Assembly (NCBI RefSeq): GCF_006351965.1
Contig: NZ_CP040932.1
Coordinates: forward strand, 558,001 to 622,000
Direction: 5' to 3'
From: Oceanicola sp. D3
Lineage (GTDB): Bacteria; Pseudomonadota; Alphaproteobacteria; Rhodobacterales; Rhodobacteraceae
Length of the DNA: 64,000 nucleotides
Numbering within the stretch: the first letter of the stretch is position 1; every line of letters starts with the position of its first letter. Of this stretch, positions 34,016 through 44,622 are shown in pieces. A model generated the notes under the pieces. It worked only from the letters and a program-made list of their open reading frames with translations, searched no databases and had not been told where the DNA came from. The position numbers were made by a program, and so were the translations under genes.

Positions 34016-36328
34016 TTAGCCGGCCATGGCACCCTCAACCGCTTCGCTAGCGGTCAGTGGAGGGTCAAACGGCTCAACGCCAGCGGGCGCATGGATGGCA
34101 ATTTGCTCGTGGATCAGCTGCTTCTTCAGAGGTTTTGTGAGATAGTGATCAAGGCCCGCGGCCAAGATATCGTCGCTATCCCCTGCAAGGGCGTGGGCCG
34201 TCATTGCTACAACTGGAACACGATGCCAGCCCTGCGCATCTTCCAAGTCTCGGATCGCCCGGGTGGCGGCCTTCCCGTCCATCTCGGGCATCGAGATATC
34301 CATGAAAACAAGGTCGGGACGCTCTGATTTATAAAGCTCTACCGCTTGCCGCCCATTTTCCGCGAAGATCAGATCTACCGAAAGACTCTTCAGCATTTTG
34401 GAGAAGACGAACCGGTTGGTCTTATTGTCTTCCGCGGCCAGAATTCGCATCACCTTCGCAGGCGCACGGGGGGGCGTTGGATCACTGCTGCACGGCGCAT
34501 TGGCGTTCTCTTCTTCCGGCGGCGCCTCAGGCGCGAAACGGAGCGGTGGTTCGCTTAGGGCGGCATAGATTTCGGCGATTTCGGCATTGCGATAGGGATA
34601 GTGCAGCACGTGATCGACACCGCTGCCCGCAAGCGCTGTCCGCACGCCTTGTTGACCCTGCCGGACCACGCAAAGAAACTGGCTGCGAGGGCACATCCCG
34701 CGCATTTCCCGCACAAGGGCGGCCGGGTCGCTGTCACAAAAGTCACTGTCGATTGCAACCATATCTGGTTCGGCACCCTCTGCCAGAATGCTGCGCAACA
34801 CATCGGGCGATCGTGCCACCTCGATCTCCATCCCGGTCATGGCCGATCTGTTCTTAGCCATGCGAACGCCGGCCCGGGAGGCGGTGGCGACCACGATGCG
34901 TGGGCCTGCGTCTGCCGGCCACGGCGTTAACCCGAAAGCTGGCGCTTCGGCTTCGAGCGAGAGATCGACAGTAAATGTTGTGCCGCGGCCCGTTTCGGTG
35001 ACGAGGCCAATCTGCCCGCCCATCAGCTCTACCAGCTGACGGGTAATGGCCAGCCCAAGCCCGGTGCCCTCAAAACGGCGGTTCTTCTCGTCCTGGACTT
35101 GATTGAATTGGCCAAAGATGTGGCTGCGCATGTCTTCGGGAATACCAATGCCGGTGTCTTCCACCGCAATCTGCAAGCCCCAGTGCTGGCCGTCCTGCCT
35201 TGGAGGTGCCGCCCGCACGCCAATGCGCACATAGCCTTTTTCAGTAAACTTGATTGCATTGCCCAGCAGGTTCACCACGACCTGCCGCAGCCGTTTTGGG
35301 TCTGCCGTAACTATCACCGGCGCGTCAGGTGCGTAGTCGAGCAGCAGATCCAGCCCCCGGTCTCTTGCGACGGGAAGCGACAGGGTGATCACCTCGCATA
35401 GCATCCCTTCAAGGTCGAACGACTCGGGGAACAGTTCCATCTTCTCGGCCTCGGCGCGGGAGAAATCCAGCACATCGTTGATAATTTCCAACAGCGCCTC
35501 GCCTGAGTTGCGGATGGTGCGGATGAACAGCGCCTGCTCTTCATCCACATCCGTATCCAGAAGAAGATCAGCCATGCCGACAACACCGTTCATCGGGGTG
35601 CGCAACTCGTGGCTCATCTTTGCCAAGAAGGCAGACTTTGCCCGGGTCGCGGCTTCTGCAGCGTCGCGGGCCTCTCGCAGTTCCTTCTGGCGCCGCATTT
35701 CGCCCGTGACGTCGATACCAAGGCAGACCATGTCGCCATTGGCGCTGCGGCGGTCATGCAGGCGCATGTGCCGCCCGTCCCATGTGCGAATTGTAATGTC
35801 GGGAATCTCGGGTGTGTCCCAGCGATCAAGCATCTCGATGATCCAGTCGCCGGGCGGCTTTTCGCCCGGGTCCACCAGCCCCTCCTCCATCATCAGGCGC
35901 AACATATCCATGTAGGTCAGGCCCGGGCGCGCATCTTCAAGGCCGTCAAACAGGTTCAGCCAGGCGGCATTTGCGGCGACCAGCCTGTCTTCCGCGTCAA
36001 ATACGGCGAAGTTGTCAGTGATCGTTTCGACAGAATCCCACAGCCGCCGCTCAGCAATCGTCACCGCCTTTTCGGCCTTCACGAGGTTGGCGCGGGTTTC
36101 CTGCGCCACGCCCTTCATGGTTTCGGCTTCTTCCTTCAGCGCGTGGGCCTGTGCCCGGGTGGTGGCCACAACTTCGCGCTGTGCGATGATGGTATCGGAA
36201 AGTTTGAGAGCGTGATCCGAGAGCTTCCGGTTTGCTGCCATCAGCTCCCGGCTCTTCAACTCAAGCATCCGCTCGGCGGCAAGGCGGCCGCGCCTTTCTC
36301 TCGCTAGCTTGTCTGTCAATGACATCAC
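34016..36328 (-). CDS. Soluble hybrid sensor histidine kinase / response regulator
   Basis: 770 residues with no transmembrane segment, so it should sense a cytosolic signal. Order: coiled-coil N-terminus (about 1-95); PAS domain (about 95-215, WDSVETITDNFAVFDAEDRLVAANAA); HisKA with phospho-acceptor His240 in SHELRTPMNG; HATPase with NLLGNAIKFTEKG, DTGIGIP and GTGLGLAI. Next is a degenerate receiver-like module (about 470-590) and a full C-terminal receiver with phospho-acceptor Asp677 in FMDISMPEMDG. No HPt domain or output regulator is adjacent, so the phosphorelay partners are unknown. It is divergent from the A2M operon with nested inverted repeats between them. Confidence 0.92.
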   Translation of the reverse strand: MMSLTDKLARERRGRLAAERMLELKSRELMAANRKLSDHALKLSDTIIAQREVVATTRAQAHALKEEAETMKGVAQETRANLVKAEKAVTIAERRLWDSVETITDNFAVFDAEDRLVAANAAWLNLFDGLEDARPGLTYMDMLRLMMEEGLVDPGEKPPGDWIIEMLDRWDTPEIPDITIRTWDGRHMRLHDRRSANGDMVCLGIDVTGEMRRQKELREARDAAEAATRAKSAFLAKMSHELRTPMNGVVGMADLLLDTDVDEEQALFIRTIRNSGEALLEIINDVLDFSRAEAEKMELFPESFDLEGMLCEVITLSLPVARDRGLDLLLDYAPDAPVIVTADPKRLRQVVVNLLGNAIKFTEKGYVRIGVRAAPPRQDGQHWGLQIAVEDTGIGIPEDMRSHIFGQFNQVQDEKNRRFEGTGLGLAITRQLVELMGGQIGLVTETGRGTTFTVDLSLEAEAPAFGLTPWPADAGPRIVVATASRAGVRMAKNRSAMTGMEIEVARSPDVLRSILAEGAEPDMVAIDSDFCDSDPAALVREMRGMCPRSQFLCVVRQGQQGVRTALAGSGVDHVLHYPYRNAEIAEIYAALSEPPLRFAPEAPPEEENANAPCSSDPTPPRAPAKVMRILAAEDNKTNRFVFSKMLKSLSVDLIFAENGRQAVELYKSERPDLVFMDISMPEMDGKAATRAIRDLEDAQGWHRVPVVAMTAHALAGDSDDILAAGLDHYLTKPLKKQLIHEQIAIHAPAGVEPFDPPLTASEAVEGAMAG

Positions 36329-36364
36329 ACGCTCCCCATCGCTCAGGCGGCCTTGGGAATCATG

Positions 36365-36418
36365 GTTAAGACACGCCTCACAAAGGTTCTGCCCGGATAC
36401 AGTTTAAACTGTCTTAAC
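36365..36418. promoter_or_regulatory. Nested inverted repeats between the kinase and A2M genes
   Basis: GTTAAGACA (36365-36373) and TGTCTTAAC (36410-36418) are perfect complements 36 bases apart. Inside, and overlapping the right arm, is a perfect 14-bp palindrome ACAGTTTAAACTGT (36399-36412). The element is in the 195-bp spacer between divergent genes. It may be a double operator or form a cruciform; regulator unknown. Confidence 0.45.
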
Positions 36419-36523
36419 GTCAGAAAGACCGTTCACATCCGCGCGCCGCCACTGGACTCGAACGCGGGGCGCATGTCACCATCACGTTGGATTATCCGCA
36501 TTTCAGATCCGAGGTCATTTCCC

Positions 36524-39500
36524 ATGCGTCGCATACTTGCGCCCTTCCTCTGCCTTCTCGCTATTGCCACCACCGCTTTGCCCGCCGCCGCGCAGCAGGG
36601 GCCAACATCTCCCGCGCCGATCCCCGAGCGCAGGCTGGTGCCCGAGAAGGACGTAGACTTCTATGGGGCCGATCTGCGCGCACTCTTCGACACCACCTAT
36701 GACGCCTGCCGCACCGCCTGCATGGCCGATGCCGCCTGCACGGCCTTTACCTTCAACGCCCGCTCGAATTCCTGTTTTCCAAAGCGGGCGGTAGAGCGGC
36801 GCGAGCCCTATGAGGGCGCCCAATCGGCCACGGTCATCACCGAGCCAGACGGCCGCGTGGCGCTGGCCCGCACCCGGGCAGATGAGCTGGATTTTCTCCG
36901 GTCTGGCGATATCCCGAGCGCCCGCAGTTTCGCCGCTGGTATGGCCAGCCTCCATTCGCCTGCCGGGTGGACCATCGACAGGCTTGAGACGGGGGCGCTG
37001 GAGGCTGCCCGCAGCGGCAATCTGCGCGAGGCCATGGTGTGGATGGGCCCGGCCATCGTGTTGGCCGACCGTGACGACCAGTGGATTGACTACGCAGGCT
37101 ACGCGCTCGACGCAAAAGCCGAGAACAATACCAGTTCTCGCAAGCGCCAGTATGAGCGCCGGGCTCTGGATGCAGCCATTAACGGCTACCTGCGTGCAGA
37201 CACTCCGGTAGATCAATCCGCCGCGCTCACCATCCTCGCCTCCGCATTGGAGCGCGCGCGCCGTGGCCGCGATATGATCCCGACCCTGCGGCTCGCACAG
37301 TCGGTGTTGCCCAGCCCGGGTACACAGGCCGCATTGGACAATGCACTTGGCAAATATGGCTTCCGTGTCACTGAGCATCAGGTGGACCCGAACCCCGAAG
37401 TGCCTCGCGTCTGCGCAACCTTTTCCGAGCGATTGGCTGAAAGCGGCACCGATTATGCGCCCTATGTGCAGCTCCACGGCACCTCCTTCACCGCTGAGCC
37501 TTCTGGCAATCAACTTTGCATCGAAGGGCTGACCCATGGTGAGCGCTATCGCGTGGTGCTTCGCGCTGGCCTCCCCTCGGCTTCGGGCGAGCGGATGGCC
37601 AAGGATGTTGAGCTTTCCTTTTACGTCCGCGACCGCGATCCGCAGGTGCGCTTCCCCGGTCGGGCGTATGTTCTGCCAAAGACCGCAGATGCAGGCATTC
37701 CCATCGTCACGGTTAACGCTGAAGAGGTAGACCTTACTCTCAACCGTGTCTCCGACCGGAACCTCCTGCGCGTGATCCAGGAAAGTTACTTTGGCCGCCC
37801 GTTGAACGAGTGGGAAGAAGACTACTTCGACGGCAACATTGCCGAGACCGTGTGGACGGGCACCGGCCATATGGAACGCCGCTTGAACGAGGATGTCACA
37901 ACGCGCCTGCCCATGGCCGAGGCCATCGCCGATCTGCCCCCCGGCGTCTACGCCCTGAAGGCCGCCATCCGTGGCTCCGATCCCTACGACAACCCGGCGG
38001 CCACTCAGTGGTTCGTGATCTCCGACATCGGCCTTGCCTCCATGTCTGGTGCGGACGGGCTGCACATCTTCACCCGTTCGCTCACCTCGGCAGACCCGCT
38101 CGCTGGCCTCACCGTCACCCTTCTGTCGCGCTCCAACCGCGAATTGGGAACGGCCACGACTGACGCACAGGGGTATGCCATGTTTGAGCCGGGCCTCACG
38201 CTGGGCCGCGGCGGCGCAGCGCCTGCGATGGTGCTGGTGAAGAACGGCGAGGACGACATGGGCTTCCTGTCGCTGACCGATCCTTCTTTTGACCTGTCCG
38301 ACCGGGGCGTTGAAGGCCGCGAGCCGGCGGGGGCGGTCGATGCCTTCCTAACAACGGATCGAGGGGCTTACCGCGCGGGGGAAACCATCTATGCCACCGC
38401 GCTCCTGCGCGATGCCACGGCCACCGCCATCGACGGGTTGCCGCTGACGGCTATCCTCACCCGCCCCGATGGCGTGGAATACGCCCGCCACTTCTCTCCC
38501 GGGGGTGTGAATGGCGGCCATGTGTTCTCTATGCCGACCTCGGGCGTCGCCCCGCGCGGCGCATGGAAAATCGCCCTTCACAGCGACCCGAAAGCGCCGC
38601 CGATCGCGACGCAAACTGTCTTGGTTGAGGATTTCCTGCCGGAACGTATCGACTTCTCGCTGGAGCTGCCCATCGAAGGGCTGACCGAAGGCGAAGCCGT
38701 GGCGGATGTGGACGTGCGCTATCTCTTTGGCGCGCCCGGTGCCAACCTGCCCGTCGAGGGCGAGCTGCGCATTGCGCCACGTCGTCAGATTGCGGGTTTC
38801 CCAAATGTGTACTTCGGTACCGAGAACAATGGCACCGGCCCGCAAACCAGCTATCTGAACGGCACCACCACGGGCGAGGATGGCAAGGCGACGCTGGCAT
38901 TGACCATGCCCGATGACATGGATGGCTTCGACGGCCCCATCGAAGCGCGCCTCACCGTTCGCGTGGCGGAAGGTTCTGGCCGTCCCGTGGAGCGCCGCGA
39001 GGCAATCGTCACGGGCCCCGGCAAACCGATGATCGGTATCAAGCCCGCCAGCGAAGGCGTGGTGCCTGAAGGCAGCGAGGCCGCTTTCTCTGTCATCGCG
39101 TTGGGGGCCGACCTTGAGCCAACCGAGATGCAGGTGAAATGGACGCTAAACCGCATCTCGCGCCGCTACCAGTGGTACTCCTCTTATGGAGCATGGAACT
39201 GGGAGCCGATCACCCGCCGCACACGTATCGCCGTGGGCGAGGGAAGGTTGGGCGAGGCACCGCTGGAGGTGTCTGGCTCGGTTGACTGGGGCACCTACGA
39301 ACTGGTCGTCGAGCGGCTGGATGGCGAATTTATCTCTGCCTCCTATGAGTTTTATGCCGGCTGGTATGCGCCGGTGGATGTGTCCTCCACCCCGGATACG
39401 CTGGAGGTGTCGCTCGACGCCGAAAGCTACAAGCCCGGCGACACGGCCACACTACGGATCGTGCCGCGCTACTCAGGCAAGGCGCTGGTCACGGTTGTCT

Positions 39501-41992
39501 CCAACCGCTTGATCGACATGAAGACGGTTGAGGTGGATGCCGAGACCGATACACTGGTGCAACTCCCCGTCACTGACGACTGGGGCGCGGGTGCCTATGT
39601 AACCGCCACCGTGATCCGCCCGATGGATGTGGCCGACAAGCGCGGCCCCGCTCGGGCGCTGGGCTTGTCTCACGCCTCGGTCGATCCGGGTGACAAGGCG
39701 CTTTCCGTGGCCTTCGACGTGCCCGCCGAATCCCAACCCCGCAGCCCGCTTGAGGTGGCGCTGAAGGTTGAGGGCGTGGCCCCGGGCGACACCGCCCACG
39801 TCACCATCGCCGCCGTGGATCAGGGCATCCTCAACCTCACAGGTTTCACCCCGCCGGACCCGTCCGGCCATTACTTCGGTCAGCGCCGCCTCGGTATGGG
39901 GATGCGCGACATCTACGGGCGGCTTATCGACGGGATGAATGGCGCCATGGGCGAGATCCGCTCCGGCGGTGACGCGGCGGCCAACGCTCGCATGCAATCT
40001 CCGCCTCCGACCGAGGAACTGGTTGCCTATTTCTCCGGCCCGCTCGAAGTCGGCCCAGATGGCTACGCCCGCACCTCCTTCGATATGCCCTCCTTCAACG
40101 GCACCGTTAAGCTGATGGCCGTCGCATGGTCAAAGACCGGCGTTGGCGAAGCCTCTGCCGATGTGCTTGTGCGTGATCCGGTGGTGCTGCAAGCCTCCCT
40201 GCCGCGTTTCATGGCGCCGGGCGACGAGGGGCGGATGCTGCTCGAAATCACCCACGCTTCCGGCGAAACAGGCCAAATCGGCCTTTCCATCACCGGCAGT
40301 GGTGTGACCTTGCCCACCGGCGCGACCTCCACGATGGAACTCGCGGAGGGGCAGACCATCCGCCTTCCGCTCACCGTGGTGGCGGGCAACCCGGGGCTGG
40401 CGACGATCGACATCGCGCTCACCACGCCCTCAGGCAAGGTGCTCAGCAAGCCGCTGAACCTGCCAATCCAGGTGAACGACCCCGAAATCTCGCGGACATC
40501 GCGCTTCGAGCTTGCCTCGGGCCAGAGTTTCACCTTCTCGCGCGATGTCTTTACCGGGCTTCAAACCGGCACCGGCAAGGCCACTCTGGCCCTCGGGCCG
40601 CTTGGCCGGTTCGACGTGCCCGGCCTGCTGGCTTCGCTCGACCGTTACCCCTACGGCTGCACCGAGCAAACAACCTCGCGCGCCATGCCGCTGCTTTATT
40701 TCGACGAGGTGTCTCGCGCGATGGGCTTGGAAGAACGCGGCGACACCCGCCAGCGGGTGGAAGGGGCGATCACCCGTATCCTCGCGCGGCAGGCGGCCTC
40801 GGGAAGCTTCGGCCTGTGGTACGCGGGCGATGGCGACTTCTGGCTCGACGCCTACGTCACCGATTTCCTCAGTCGCGCACGGGCGCAGGGCTACGATGTG
40901 CCCGCAATCGCCTTCCGCAATGCGCTCGACAACCTGCGCAACAAGGTCAACTACGCACCAGACTTCGACGAGGGCGGCGAGAGCATTGCCTATGCGCTGA
41001 TGGTGCTGGCCCGCGAGGGCGCGGCCTCGATGGGGGATCTGCGCTACTATGCCGATGTGAAGGCCGAAGCCTTCACCACGCCACTCGGGGCGGCCCAATT
41101 GGCCACTGCGCTTTCGCTCTATGGAGACCCGACGCGCGCGGATTCAATGTTCACCCGTGCCGCTGCGCAGATGGTGGCCGATACCGGCACAGAACCTGCA
41201 AGCTATTGGCGTGACGACTACGGCACCAAGCTGCGCGATGCGGCTGCGGTGCTGGCGCTTGCGGCAGAAGCGGGCACGCAGGTCATCAACCGCGAAGCGC
41301 TTTCAGTTCGGGTGACGGGCCAAACCGGCTATCGCTCAACGCAAGAGAAGGTTTGGACGTTGATGGCCGCGAAGGCGCTAATTTCCGCTGCACCGCGCGA
41401 TGGTTTCACCCGTAACGGACAGCCGGTGAACGGCCCACTGGTGGAGGTGCTGGCCGACGAAACGGCAAGCCAGCCGGTGGACATCCGCAACGACAGCGGG
41501 CAGACCACCACGCTCACCCTCACCACCTTTGGCGTGCCGACAGAGCCTGAGCCCGCAGGCGGCAACGGTTACGCAATCGAGCGCGAGTATTACACCATGG
41601 ACGGCATGGGGGTGGACCTCGGCGCCGTGCCCTCGGGCGAGCGCATGGTGGTGGTGCTCACCGTCACACCCTTCGGGCGGCGCGACGCGCGCCTGATGGT
41701 GGATGATGCCCTGCCTGCCGGTTTTGAGATCGACAACCCCTCTCTGATCCGCTCCGGTGATATCCGCGAGCTGAGCTGGCTCAAGACGGTTTCGGCGCGG
41801 CACTCCGAGTTTCGGCAGGAGCGATTCCTCTCGGCGGTGGACTGGCGCAGCGACAAGCCCTTCAAGCTGGCCTATATCGTCCGCGCGATCTCGCCGGGCC
41901 ACTATCACCACCCGGCGGCATCGGTTGAGGATATGTACCGCCCCGCCTTCCGTGCCCGCACTGATGCTGGCCGGGTGACGGTGGTGGAGTGA
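36524..41992 (+). CDS. Alpha-2-macroglobulin family protein with PAN-like N-terminal domain
   Basis: Giant exported protein, 1822 residues. Signal peptide RILAPFLCLLAIATTALPAAAQQ is cut after Ala and has no lipobox Cys, so unlike E. coli YfhM it should be soluble in the periplasm. A PAN/Apple-like Cys domain (about 45-90: YDACRTACMADAACTAFTFNARSNSC) precedes a long series of macroglobulin domains. The thioester motif is intact: Cys1379-Thr-Glu-Gln1382 in YGCTEQTTSRAMP, followed by an alpha/alpha-barrel region. Bacterial A2Ms trap invading proteases and are usually coupled to PBP1C. ATG 36524 has GAGG upstream and begins the signal peptide; an open extension to 36353 crosses the regulatory repeats and is rejected. 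Confidence 0.93.
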   Translation: MRRILAPFLCLLAIATTALPAAAQQGPTSPAPIPERRLVPEKDVDFYGADLRALFDTTYDACRTACMADAACTAFTFNARSNSCFPKRAVERREPYEGAQSATVITEPDGRVALARTRADELDFLRSGDIPSARSFAAGMASLHSPAGWTIDRLETGALEAARSGNLREAMVWMGPAIVLADRDDQWIDYAGYALDAKAENNTSSRKRQYERRALDAAINGYLRADTPVDQSAALTILASALERARRGRDMIPTLRLAQSVLPSPGTQAALDNALGKYGFRVTEHQVDPNPEVPRVCATFSERLAESGTDYAPYVQLHGTSFTAEPSGNQLCIEGLTHGERYRVVLRAGLPSASGERMAKDVELSFYVRDRDPQVRFPGRAYVLPKTADAGIPIVTVNAEEVDLTLNRVSDRNLLRVIQESYFGRPLNEWEEDYFDGNIAETVWTGTGHMERRLNEDVTTRLPMAEAIADLPPGVYALKAAIRGSDPYDNPAATQWFVISDIGLASMSGADGLHIFTRSLTSADPLAGLTVTLLSRSNRELGTATTDAQGYAMFEPGLTLGRGGAAPAMVLVKNGEDDMGFLSLTDPSFDLSDRGVEGREPAGAVDAFLTTDRGAYRAGETIYATALLRDATATAIDGLPLTAILTRPDGVEYARHFSPGGVNGGHVFSMPTSGVAPRGAWKIALHSDPKAPPIATQTVLVEDFLPERIDFSLELPIEGLTEGEAVADVDVRYLFGAPGANLPVEGELRIAPRRQIAGFPNVYFGTENNGTGPQTSYLNGTTTGEDGKATLALTMPDDMDGFDGPIEARLTVRVAEGSGRPVERREAIVTGPGKPMIGIKPASEGVVPEGSEAAFSVIALGADLEPTEMQVKWTLNRISRRYQWYSSYGAWNWEPITRRTRIAVGEGRLGEAPLEVSGSVDWGTYELVVERLDGEFISASYEFYAGWYAPVDVSSTPDTLEVSLDAESYKPGDTATLRIVPRYSGKALVTVVSNRLIDMKTVEVDAETDTLVQLPVTDDWGAGAYVTATVIRPMDVADKRGPARALGLSHASVDPGDKALSVAFDVPAESQPRSPLEVALKVEGVAPGDTAHVTIAAVDQGILNLTGFTPPDPSGHYFGQRRLGMGMRDIYGRLIDGMNGAMGEIRSGGDAAANARMQSPPPTEELVAYFSGPLEVGPDGYARTSFDMPSFNGTVKLMAVAWSKTGVGEASADVLVRDPVVLQASLPRFMAPGDEGRMLLEITHASGETGQIGLSITGSGVTLPTGATSTMELAEGQTIRLPLTVVAGNPGLATIDIALTTPSGKVLSKPLNLPIQVNDPEISRTSRFELASGQSFTFSRDVFTGLQTGTGKATLALGPLGRFDVPGLLASLDRYPYGCTEQTTSRAMPLLYFDEVSRAMGLEERGDTRQRVEGAITRILARQAASGSFGLWYAGDGDFWLDAYVTDFLSRARAQGYDVPAIAFRNALDNLRNKVNYAPDFDEGGESIAYALMVLAREGAASMGDLRYYADVKAEAFTTPLGAAQLATALSLYGDPTRADSMFTRAAAQMVADTGTEPASYWRDDYGTKLRDAAAVLALAAEAGTQVINREALSVRVTGQTGYRSTQEKVWTLMAAKALISAAPRDGFTRNGQPVNGPLVEVLADETASQPVDIRNDSGQTTTLTLTTFGVPTEPEPAGGNGYAIEREYYTMDGMGVDLGAVPSGERMVVVLTVTPFGRRDARLMVDDALPAGFEIDNPSLIRSGDIRELSWLKTVSARHSEFRQERFLSAVDWRSDKPFKLAYIVRAISPGHYHHPAASVEDMYRPAFRARTDAGRVTVVE

Positions 41993-42014
41993 TGCACTGG
42001 CAGGCGGGGTATCC

Positions 42015-42575
42015 GTGAAACATGGCAAACCCCATGCCACCGCCTATTGGCGCCGCCTCGACCGGCTGGGCGATGACAGCTGTAGGCTGATCGAGGAGCC
42101 CGGCGGGTGGATGCTTTGCGGCCACGCTCGTTATGACCAAGGCGGTCAGCGCACCGCGTTGGATTACGTCGTGCGCTGTAACGCTGCGTGGGAAACCCGC
42201 TCAGCGGATGTAACAGGCGTGATCGGCGGGCAAGAGGTGGCTTGGCGCGTGGTGCGCGGTCCGTTGGGCTGGCACCTTGGCGATGGCCCGGCGACGCTTG
42301 ATGATTGTACGGACATTGACCTTGCCTTTACCCCGGCCACCAATCTTCTGCCGCTCCGCAGGCTGGCATTTGAAGGCACGGAAGAGGTGGCGGCTGCCTG
42401 GTTTCGGGAGGGCGAGGAGGCCACGCTGGAACGCCTTGCCCAGCGCTACACGCAAAAGGGCGCGGGGCGGTTCACCTATGCCTCCCCGGGGTTTGAAGCC
42501 GAGCTTCAGGTGCATCCGACGGGCTTTGTGACCCACTACCCCGGCCTCTGGGAGGGATCCGTCGATGTTGCGTGA
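42015..42575 (+). CDS. Putative glycolipid-binding domain protein
   Basis: 186 residues, GTG start, matching the putative glycolipid-binding family (PF06475, formerly DUF1089). Recognisable stretches are YWRRLDRLGDDSCRLIEE, LDYVVRCNAAWETRSADVTG, IDLAFTPATNLLPLRRLAF and FTYASPGFEAELQVHPTGFVTHYPGLWEG. No signal peptide, so the product should be cytosolic. It begins 22 bp after the A2M stop and overlaps the pbpC start by 11 bp, so it is part of the same operon. What it does there is not known. Confidence 0.82.
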   Translation: MKHGKPHATAYWRRLDRLGDDSCRLIEEPGGWMLCGHARYDQGGQRTALDYVVRCNAAWETRSADVTGVIGGQEVAWRVVRGPLGWHLGDGPATLDDCTDIDLAFTPATNLLPLRRLAFEGTEEVAAAWFREGEEATLERLAQRYTQKGAGRFTYASPGFEAELQVHPTGFVTHYPGLWEGSVDVA

Positions 42576-44622
42576 GCGGCTCATCGCCCGCATTGCGGTT
42601 ATCACCGCCATCGCCCTCTTCGCCTTCGCACTGGGGCGCGACAAACTCGACGATTGGGTCTCTGCAACGGTGTTGCCGCCCTTAGTGGCCGAAACCTCGC
42701 CCGAGGTGTTGGCCCGCGATGGCAGCCTGCTGCGGGCCTATACCGTTTCGGATGGTCGCTGGCGGCTTCACACTACGTTGGCCGAAGTCGATGCGCGCTA
42801 TGTAGACATGCTGTTGGCCTATGAAGACAAGCGTTTCCGCAGTCACCCCGGAGTGGATTGGCGCGCGACGCTCCGCGCTGTAGGGCAGGCGGTTTGGAAT
42901 GGGCGTGTCATCTCCGGCGGCTCTACGTTGTCGATGCAAGTGGCTCGCATTCTCGAAGATGGCCCAACCGGGCAATGGGAGGGCAAGGTTCGGCAGGTGC
43001 GCGTGGCACTGGCCATGGAGCGGCGATTGGGGAAGGAGGCGATTCTTGAACTCTACCTCAACCGAGCGCCCTTCGGAGGCAACCTCGAAGGTGTGCGCGC
43101 AGCTTCGCTTGCCTATTTCGGCAAAGAGCCTCGCCGCCTGACCCCGGCGGAGGCCGCGCTTCTGGTGGCCTTGCCGCAATCACCCGAACGCCGCCGCCCC
43201 GACCGGCAGAATGATGCGGCAACCGCCGCGAGGGGCCGGGTGCTTGACAGGATGGTAGGCAAGGCCCTGATCACCGAGGCAGAAGCCCGAGCGGCCCGGC
43301 GCGACCCTGTGCCTGCGCGCCGCCGCGACTTTCCCGCGCTTGCGCCCCACCTTTCTGATTACTTGCTGTCTGAAAACCCGATCGGCACGCGCCACGCGAC
43401 GACGATCGACAAGCGGCTGCAATCGGCGCTTGAGCCACTGGCCAGACAGGCCGCCCGCGAAATTGACAAGAGCGTCTCTGTCGCAATCGTTGTCGCCGAC
43501 CACCAGACCGGTGAAATCCTCGCCACCGTTGGCTCCGCAGGCTACCTTGACGACACGCGCGCAGGCTGGATCGACATGACCCGTGCCCTGCGCTCGCCCG
43601 GCTCCACGCTGAAGCCTCTGGTGTACGGCCTCGCCTTCGACCAAGGGCTGGCCCACCCCGAAACGCTCATCGAAGACCGACCAATGGCCTTCGGCAGCTA
43701 CGCGCCGCAAAACTTCGACAATCGCTACAGGGGCACCATCCGCCTGTCGGAAGCGCTGCGCCAATCGCTCAACATCCCCGTGGTGCAACTCACCGAAGCG
43801 CTGACACCCGAGCGCTTGCTCGTTCATATGCGCCGTGCCGGGATGGAGCCCAAGCTTCCGCGCGGCCGCCCCGGCCTAGCGGTGGCGCTAGGCGGGGTGG
43901 GCGTAACGCTCACCGACCTTACCCAGCTCTATGCCGGCATCGCCCGCGGCGGGGAGAGCATTGAGCTTTCGGCAATGCGGAGCCCTGCGCGGCCCGTGAC
44001 CCGACAGGTGCTCTCGCCTGAGGCCGCTTGGCAGGTGACACATATCCTCGCAGGGCTCGCCCCACCGCCACGCGCCTCGCACGGGCCAATGGCCTGGAAG
44101 ACCGGCACGAGCTACGGCCACCGAGATGCTTGGGCGGTGGGCTATGACGCGCGCCATGTGGTTGGAGTTTGGATCGGTCGCCCCGATGGCACCTCCGTTC
44201 CCGGCGCATTCGGCGCAGACATAGCCGGGCCATTGCTGTTTTCCGCCTTCGATCGGCTGAAGGACAGGCGTGAGGCCTTCGCGCCGCCGCCCCCGTCGGT
44301 GTTGATGGTGACCAACCCCGAATTGCCCCAGCCGCTCCGCCACTTTGCCTCGCGCTCTGCGGCCCTTTCCTCCACACAGCCCGACGCGCCCAAGCTTGCC
44401 TATCCGCCCGATGGTGCCGAGCTGGAAACTGGCGGTGCCTTGGTGGTGAAGCTCCGCGACGGAAACCCGCCGTTCACCCTTCTGGCAAACGGTGCCCCCC
44501 TCGCCACCGGCTTGCGCAGCCGAGAGGCGCAGTTTGATTGGGAAGCCCACGGTTACCTCCAGTTGACGGTTATCGACGCAACCGGGCGCACGGCACGCGC
44601 TTCAATCCGCGTGCTTGATTGA
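42565..44622 (+). CDS. pbpC: Penicillin-binding protein 1C
   Basis: Bifunctional peptidoglycan synthase anchored by one N-terminal helix (about 10-24), 685 residues. The glycosyltransferase-51 domain has catalytic Glu87 in AYEDKRFRSHPGVD and the GGSTLSMQVAR motif. The transpeptidase domain has Ser347 in the SxxK motif (STLK), SLN, and KTGTS at 512-516. A C-terminal BiPBP_C domain (about 600-685) marks it as PBP1C. PBP1C is the regular partner of alpha-2-macroglobulin; together they are thought to mend the wall and trap proteases after envelope breach. The RNA overlaps the preceding gene. Confidence 0.96.
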   Translation: MLRERLIARIAVITAIALFAFALGRDKLDDWVSATVLPPLVAETSPEVLARDGSLLRAYTVSDGRWRLHTTLAEVDARYVDMLLAYEDKRFRSHPGVDWRATLRAVGQAVWNGRVISGGSTLSMQVARILEDGPTGQWEGKVRQVRVALAMERRLGKEAILELYLNRAPFGGNLEGVRAASLAYFGKEPRRLTPAEAALLVALPQSPERRRPDRQNDAATAARGRVLDRMVGKALITEAEARAARRDPVPARRRDFPALAPHLSDYLLSENPIGTRHATTIDKRLQSALEPLARQAAREIDKSVSVAIVVADHQTGEILATVGSAGYLDDTRAGWIDMTRALRSPGSTLKPLVYGLAFDQGLAHPETLIEDRPMAFGSYAPQNFDNRYRGTIRLSEALRQSLNIPVVQLTEALTPERLLVHMRRAGMEPKLPRGRPGLAVALGGVGVTLTDLTQLYAGIARGGESIELSAMRSPARPVTRQVLSPEAAWQVTHILAGLAPPPRASHGPMAWKTGTSYGHRDAWAVGYDARHVVGVWIGRPDGTSVPGAFGADIAGPLLFSAFDRLKDRREAFAPPPPSVLMVTNPELPQPLRHFASRSAALSSTQPDAPKLAYPPDGAELETGGALVVKLRDGNPPFTLLANGAPLATGLRSREAQFDWEAHGYLQLTVIDATGRTARASIRVLD

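Follow-up and report, generated by a model that had tools for sequence, protein, structure and literature searches.

The idea that alpha-2-macroglobulin (A2M) and the penicillin-binding protein PBP1C act together is said to have originated with Budd et al. in 2004. In the type I operons of Escherichia coli (yfhM-pbpC) and Salmonella (Sa-A2M), an A2M with a CxEQ thioester is encoded beside PBP1C, and passages of PMC4498604, PMC3328433 and PMC5764988 present the two proteins as a proposed trap-and-repair pair of the periplasm; a preliminary description of the DNA studied here was thus right to treat the pairing as known. The present analysis concerns an operon of this kind in Oceanicola sp. D3, situated in a window of 64,000 nucleotides (positions 558001-622000 of the single contig that makes up the 4.05 Mb genome), in which a gene of the family PF06475 (the middle gene) lies between the A2M gene and pbpC. 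The results indicate that the middle gene was acquired by the operon once, in an ancestor within the Roseobacter group, and that it has since been separated from its two neighbours in both directions.

Compared with the E. coli and Salmonella operons, some marine Roseobacters possess the extra PF06475 gene between A2M and pbpC, and the N-terminus of their A2M has a PAN-like domain and no lipobox. The mag operon (magA-F) of Pseudomonas aeruginosa also combines an A2M with additional proteins, but that A2M is of type II and without a thioester, and the operon is not one of A2M with PBP1C, as far as the relevant part of PMC5764988 describes it. The middle protein resembles PA1994 of P. aeruginosa (2h1t) in its fold, in the two pocket aspartates, and in a pocket Thr, Asn, Gln and Tyr. 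The authors of the PA1994 structure proposed glycolipid binding from the pocket, from local similarities and from the genome context, and their text does not describe it as a neighbour of an A2M gene (PMC2954207). EipB shares the spiral beta architecture and has been linked to envelope integrity, according to a passage of PMC10787603; it is, however, periplasmic, whereas the middle protein has no signal peptide.

No description of a PF06475 gene in an A2M-pbpC operon was found in the literature searched. Likewise, no paper joining 'putative glycolipid-binding' with alpha-2-macroglobulin was found, and a search for Roseobacter together with alpha-2-macroglobulin turned up only work on proteases in host defence. 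The operon is a real, conserved variant of a known one, apparently undescribed in the literature searched. The order of its genes on the + strand is A2M, middle gene, pbpC, and the Pfam and TIGR02073 scores and the coordinates confirm the three identities and places first proposed.

36524..41992, + strand: A2M, type I (thioester), with an N-terminal signal peptide and no lipobox (Pfam domains; CxEQ thioester)
42015..42575, + strand: middle gene, PF06475 (DUF1089, 'putative glycolipid-binding'), product predicted to be cytosolic (Pfam, 125.5 bits; AlphaFold2 model)
42565..44622, + strand: PBP1C (transglycosylase, transpeptidase, BiPBP_C), overlapping the middle gene (TIGR02073)

The A2M open reading frame (ORF) runs from an ATG at 36524 to a TGA at 41990-41992, the middle gene from a GTG at 42015 to a stop at 42573-42575, and pbpC from an ATG at 42565 to a stop at 44620-44622. 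The term 'overlapping operon', used earlier for this locus, therefore holds for the junction of the middle gene with pbpC, where the overlap is 11 bp, and not for that of A2M with the middle gene, where there is a gap of 22 bp. PBP1C scores 668 bits against TIGR02073 (cut-off 494), contains all three Pfam domains and has its catalytic motifs at 43603 (SxxK), 43765 (SxN) and 44098 (KTGT). Among named organisms, the host is closest to Vannielia litorea and Oceanicola sp. m2 (identity of the middle gene to that of the window, 83-84%); it is a Vannielia-like Roseobacter.

Distribution and origin of the middle gene

Two samples were used. The order-level sample comprised 292 genomes, all from one family (searched for PF06475, bMG10 and PBP1C), and the named collection comprised the best 80 of 374 middle-gene relatives. 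The samples overlap, in that 14 of the 20 linked loci (those with all three genes) of the 292-genome sample are also in the named collection. PF06475 was detected in 45 of the 292 genomes (46 matches), bMG10 in 166 and PBP1C in 162, its presence being defined as a TIGR02073 score over the curated cut-off. The middle gene was situated between A2M and pbpC in 20 of these genomes, representing 10 genera. Among the best 80 named loci, 66 (from about 29 genera) have all three genes, and one more is cut by a contig end. A strain-specific or chance ORF is rejected by the recurrence of this gene order. The tight insertion of a PF06475 gene, as reported from the window alone, is thus conserved in many Roseobacters, and the neighbourhood survey proposed at that time places it well beyond a single strain.

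The tree of the 46 PF06475 proteins placed all 20 operon genes in one clade (support 100/100), together with two from genomes without A2M. Patristic distances for the middle gene and PBP1C were compared for 65 of the 66 named linked loci, one with a truncated pbpC having been dropped; the Mantel r was 0.851, against a maximum of 0.129 in 999 shuffles. The two trees have 32 of 62 splits in common (shuffled mean, 0.21). These trees show a single entry of the middle gene into the A2M-pbpC operon, in an ancestor within the Roseobacter group, followed by co-inheritance. The junction of the middle gene with pbpC is an overlap in all 20 linked loci of the 292-genome sample, ranging from 8 to 29 bp with starts set by BLAST.

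Outside the family, the same operon was found in none of 24 class genomes having a middle-gene relative, several of which are fragmented. An A2M is present in eight of these, on another contig in six and more than 2 Mb away in two (G484 and G648). Four named matches from outside the Roseobacters (L156, L173, L174 and L176) fell outside the clade; an A2M was present in the genome and absent from the fetched locus. The contexts of other PF06475 genes are mixed: a methyltransferase is the neighbour in Mesorhizobium (L174), and in L075 the neighbours are one AAA ATPase of 643 amino acids and two proteins without a convincing Pfam family. Six unlinked loci (L075, L077, L079, L080, L088 and L091) carry another PF06475 gene with a common run of conserved neighbours. 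Inferring a function from the neighbours of other PF06475 genes was of no help, given these mixed contexts.

Three observations concern individual records. A PF06475 gene outside the clade, in Variovorax (L176; G304:C12), has PBP1C at a distance of some 10 kb and A2M at some 24 kb, apparently on the same contig; this proximity may be due to chance. Locus L137 is labelled as Enemella evansiae, an actinobacterium, and yet has a typical Roseobacter A2M-middle gene-pbpC locus nested among those of Roseobacters; the assembly is most likely mislabelled or mixed. Two records of Primorskyibacter flagellatus (L113 and L129), one with the operon and one with a lone middle gene, are far apart in both the middle-gene and kinase trees, and one of the two names is probably wrong.

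Separation of the middle gene from A2M and PBP1C

A2M and PBP1C occurred together in 162 of the 292 genomes, A2M alone in four (two of them by weak matches) and PBP1C alone in none; neither was found in 126. The pair is, on these counts, close to inseparable, and, for one family, the counts lend numerical weight to the long-standing idea of joint action by A2M and PBP1C. Two genomes (G190 and G272) with a strong A2M match (bMG10 E values of 2e-28 and 8e-26) and no PBP1C over the cut-off are rare exceptions to the pairing. Only 20 genomes with the pair carry the middle gene, the other 142 having none; among the 126 without either partner, two carry it.

Twenty loci without the middle gene were picked across genera from the 142 genomes, and in these A2M and pbpC are directly adjacent. 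Loss of the middle gene was assessed on a tree of PBP1C and on one of the kinase encoded upstream. The kinase and the region that separates it from the operon are situated in the window as follows.

34016..36328, - strand: hybrid histidine kinase, divergent from the operon, upstream synteny anchor (Pfam)
36329..36523, strand not assigned: intergenic region between kinase and A2M, presumed operon promoter, with TGTCACCAT at 36474

Downstream of the operon there is a convergent MurJ gene (Pfam). On the kinase tree, which took in the 16 of the 20 chosen loci that have the kinase, the state of a pair without the middle gene requires 8 changes, at least 7 of them forced by well-supported branches. 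On the PBP1C tree, constructed from 20 linked loci and the 20 without the middle gene, the linked state requires 9 changes, at least 6 of them forced.

The converse state was observed in nine genomes: two of Alloyangia pacifica, one of Salipiger mangrovisoli, and two each of Primorskyibacter, Roseivivax and Roseovarius. The lone middle gene has a kinase homologue upstream in all nine and a thiolase gene downstream in all nine, at a gap of 7 to 1256 bp. The thiolase is also present in 21 of the 66 named linked loci, including those of Roseovarius, Roseivivax and Salipiger. Neither A2M nor PBP1C over the cut-off was detected in any of the nine genomes, eight of which are, by their titles, not metagenome-assembled genomes (MAGs), and no remnants of either gene were found in the lone loci by tblastn. 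Ten recurring neighbour ORFs of these loci were scanned, of which three had Pfam families (YaaA, thiolase and hybrid kinase) and seven had none; the seven, which include apparent wrong-strand ORFs, were set aside.

The lone genes branch from within the linked clade at no fewer than four points, both in the middle-gene tree and in the kinase tree. From these placements, the pair was lost and the middle gene kept in at least four independent events. It is apparent, therefore, that the middle gene is separable in both directions, having been lost where the pair stays and kept where the pair was lost. The same topology makes it very improbable that the lone loci are ancestral and that A2M and pbpC were added later on either side of the middle gene, a scheme suggested by their common flanks and clean junctions and opposed also by the direct adjacency of A2M and pbpC in the 20 chosen loci without the middle gene and by the presence of the pair in other bacteria, as recorded in parts of PMC4498604 and PMC5764988.

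The dN/dS ratios were 0.077-0.152 for five lone pairs and 0.104-0.200 for seven linked pairs, one lone pair having a near-saturated dS. The ratios for the lone genes are not above those for the linked genes, and purifying selection thus did not visibly relax after the loss of the partners. Genomes that lost the pair and kept the middle gene provide a natural means of separating the role of this gene from those of A2M and PBP1C without the construction of mutants. One further clade member, L096 (G235), is on a long branch, has an altered pocket segment (FTPAWMAVP) and comes from a genome without A2M and PBP1C; its tree position is unsure, and it was excluded from the nine lone loci.

The DNA upstream of the lone genes was compared with that of the operon. 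A kinase homologue was found in 60 of the 66 named linked loci and, with shorter flanks, in 12 of the 20 linked loci of the 292-genome sample. Two motif patterns, picked after viewing alignments that included lone loci, were counted in the 64 linked loci having enough upstream DNA. TGAA-N6-8-TTAA was observed upstream of 50 of the 64 linked A2M genes, 9 of the 20 A2M genes in loci without the middle gene and 8 of the 9 lone middle genes. The corresponding counts for TTG-N19-21-CA(C/A)(C/G/A)AT were 26 of 64, 3 of 20 and 6 of 9. Neither pattern was found before any of the 64 middle genes inside the operon, and the shuffled expectation for both was at most 0.4 per group. Five of the nine lone loci have both motifs in order. 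The upstream DNA of the Salipiger-Alloyangia set aligns over the stretch between the kinase N-terminus and approximately the beginning of the operon. The motifs and this alignment suggest that, in several lineages, deletions left the middle gene near the upstream region of the operon. A scan of the operon for consensus promoters and terminators gave results at or below chance. The position of TGAA-N6-8-TTAA between the kinase and the operon is such that it could be a shared regulatory site.

The middle protein and its possible role

The middle protein scored 125.5 bits against PF06475 (cut-off 25), and its AlphaFold2 model had a pLDDT of 94. The best fold match was PA1994, with a Z score of 20.7, a root-mean-square deviation of 2.0 over 161 residues and 27% identity; 2h1t was the one solved PF06475 structure in the structure search. 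EipB (DUF1849, PDB 6ntr) was second (Z 13.6, 9% identity). Lower matches to VioE (Z 8.0) and LolA (Z 7.7, 121 residues) are near the range of common arrangements, and the support for a VioE-like enzyme or a LolA-like carrier goes no further than the modelled fold. The pocket segment is located as follows.

42312..42353, + strand: middle-protein pocket segment DIDLAFTPATNLLP (Asp100, Asp102, Thr109, Asn110, Leu111)

Asp100 and Asp102 are conserved in all 68 operon-linked relatives, and Tyr145 in 67 of the 68 as well as in the window protein; the three match Asp101, Asp103 and Tyr147 in the pocket of PA1994. The position of the PA1994 cis-Pro106 is occupied by Phe105 in 68 of 68 linked rows. The pocket Thr112 of PA1994 corresponds to Leu111, which is found in 67 of the 68 linked and all nine lone genes, while Thr is present in 21 of 28 other PF06475 genes. 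The only linked row with Thr at position 111 is L137; this and other single deviants, such as L103, which has Val at position 145 and is truncated by the end of its contig, stayed in all counts. The exchange is specific to the clade and suggests a specialised ligand.

No hydrophobic N-terminal segment was found in 77 middle proteins, for which values ranged from -0.12 to 1.65, as compared with 2.08 to 3.22 for 40 A2Ms. The middle protein should accordingly be cytosolic, since it lacks a hydrophobic N-terminus of the A2M kind, and it lacks the signal peptide expected of periplasmic lipoprotein carriers of the LolA/LolB type. No proven function for PF06475 was found in the literature searched. 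From the family, it is a reasonable guess that the protein binds or enzymatically converts an amphipathic molecule in the cytosol. The label 'lipid-sensing' derives only from the family name, which was itself inferred from a crystal structure and its genome context (PMC2954207).

We favour, with moderate confidence, the explanation that the middle gene, which joined the operon on a single occasion, encodes a binding protein or enzyme of the cytosol, and that it is expressed along with A2M and PBP1C but does its work without them. As the trees show, a single PF06475 gene came into the A2M-pbpC operon of an ancestor within the Roseobacters and was then inherited with it. Its product, to judge from the predicted model and the solved homologue, would be a spiral beta-roll protein of the cytosol, its conserved pocket acidic and polar, and the family makes it most likely that the ligand or substrate of this protein is a small amphipathic molecule, a lipid-linked sugar for example. 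The exported A2M would trap proteases in the periplasm and PBP1C would mend peptidoglycan there, as has been hypothesized for the pair. The spacing of the genes suggests that the middle gene is co-expressed with them; it would not be a working part of their machine. In the simplest picture, a cytosolic gene with its own task would profit from the operon promoter, probably under the same envelope stress. The conserved place of the gene in a cell-envelope operon gives PF06475 a testable setting.

Several results weigh against this explanation. Of 14 sampled genomes that are without the pair in the genera holding the clade, only two have retained the middle gene, so retention without the partners is a minority outcome. 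A pocket residue invariant in the linked genes is changed in two of the nine lone genes, Asp100 being replaced by Val in L175 and Asn110 by Ser in L133; moreover, L175 is from a MAG of uncertain completeness, and the absence of the pair there is weaker evidence for that reason. The ordered motif pair is missing from two Roseovarius and two Roseivivax lone loci, and the window's own upstream region is without both motifs, containing only a match to TGTCACCAT. TGAA-N6-8-TTAA may equally serve the divergent kinase, which the lone loci keep. Finally, a functional link would also explain the overlap with pbpC in all 20 loci.

A more specific proposal, which we regard as tentative and rather unlikely, is that the middle protein serves the envelope-stress response as a cytosolic arm peculiar to Roseobacters. 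Its pocket, with Leu for Thr, would handle a lipid-linked cell-wall intermediate or a glycolipid one upon induction of A2M and PBP1C; this arm would be of enough value for several lineages to have deleted both envelope genes and retained it alone, near the upstream region of the operon. If true, it would represent the first genetic function for PF06475. To much the same limited degree we entertain the view that the middle gene is a mere hitchhiker, a housekeeping or metabolic gene unrelated to the envelope that was inserted into the operon a single time and has been retained by descent, excision from an operon with overlapping genes being difficult. Its repeated loss from the operon, and the other contexts of PF06475 genes seen in Mesorhizobium L174 and in L075, are consistent with such a gene. 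The clade is, however, nearly limited to the operon or its remnants (66 operon loci, one cut by a contig end and nine remnants among the best 80 named loci), and the clade-specific Leu111 points to a specialised ligand.

Less probable again is a three-part module in which the middle protein, by sensing or supplying a lipid such as lipid II or an undecaprenyl-linked sugar at the cytosolic face, tunes PBP1C, with A2M as the outer protease trap. PBP1C uses a lipid-linked substrate, which counts in favour of such a module, as do the conserved gene order with its invariable pbpC overlap, the tie of one clade to the A2M-pbpC operon and the changed pocket residues in two of the nine lone genes. Against it, the middle gene is missing from 142 of the 162 genomes with the pair, and in at least four lineages it has outlived both partners with a similar dN/dS. 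These results, together with the absence of a signal peptide from a protein whose operon partners work in the periplasm, do not sustain the earlier suggestion that the middle protein is the lipid-sensing component of an envelope-defence module.

The A2M protein

The A2M of the window has the domains bMG2, bMG3, bMG5, bMG6, bMG10, MG2, A2M_BRD, TED and A2M over the Pfam cut-offs, and two further features were mapped.

36653..36802, + strand: PAN-like Cys domain of A2M, amino acids 44-93 (PAN_1 and PAN_4 scores)
40649..40669, + strand: thioester motif PYGCTEQ of A2M

The protein is of type I by its CxEQ thioester, bMG domains, bait region and neighbouring pbpC, with one gene inserted. It has a signal-peptide-like N-terminus and lacks the lipobox and inner-membrane anchor of the E. 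coli type, a feature not treated here as universal. The PAN-like domain, with 23.9 bits for PAN_1 (above the cut-off of 21.4) and 25.2 bits for PAN_4 (below the cut-off of 27), is real but weak.

The 104 rows with complete A2M N-termini represent 90 distinct proteins, 14 loci being duplicated. The thioester is present in all 90, the PAN Cys motif in 85 in a strict form and in all 90 in a slightly looser form, and a lipobox-like motif in none. The added PAN-like domain and the missing lipid anchor remarked on in the preliminary description are both present in the window, but these counts reject the notion that they are special to the strain, and both are ordinary in this A2M family. The PAN-type N-terminus may hold A2M in the envelope by another route. 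PAN did not score in two A2Ms from other Alphaproteobacteria. In two A2Ms from Rhizobiales (L204 and L205), PAN_1 was above the cut-off at the N-terminus and there was no obvious lipobox; a PAN domain may stand in for the lipid anchor more widely across the Alphaproteobacteria.

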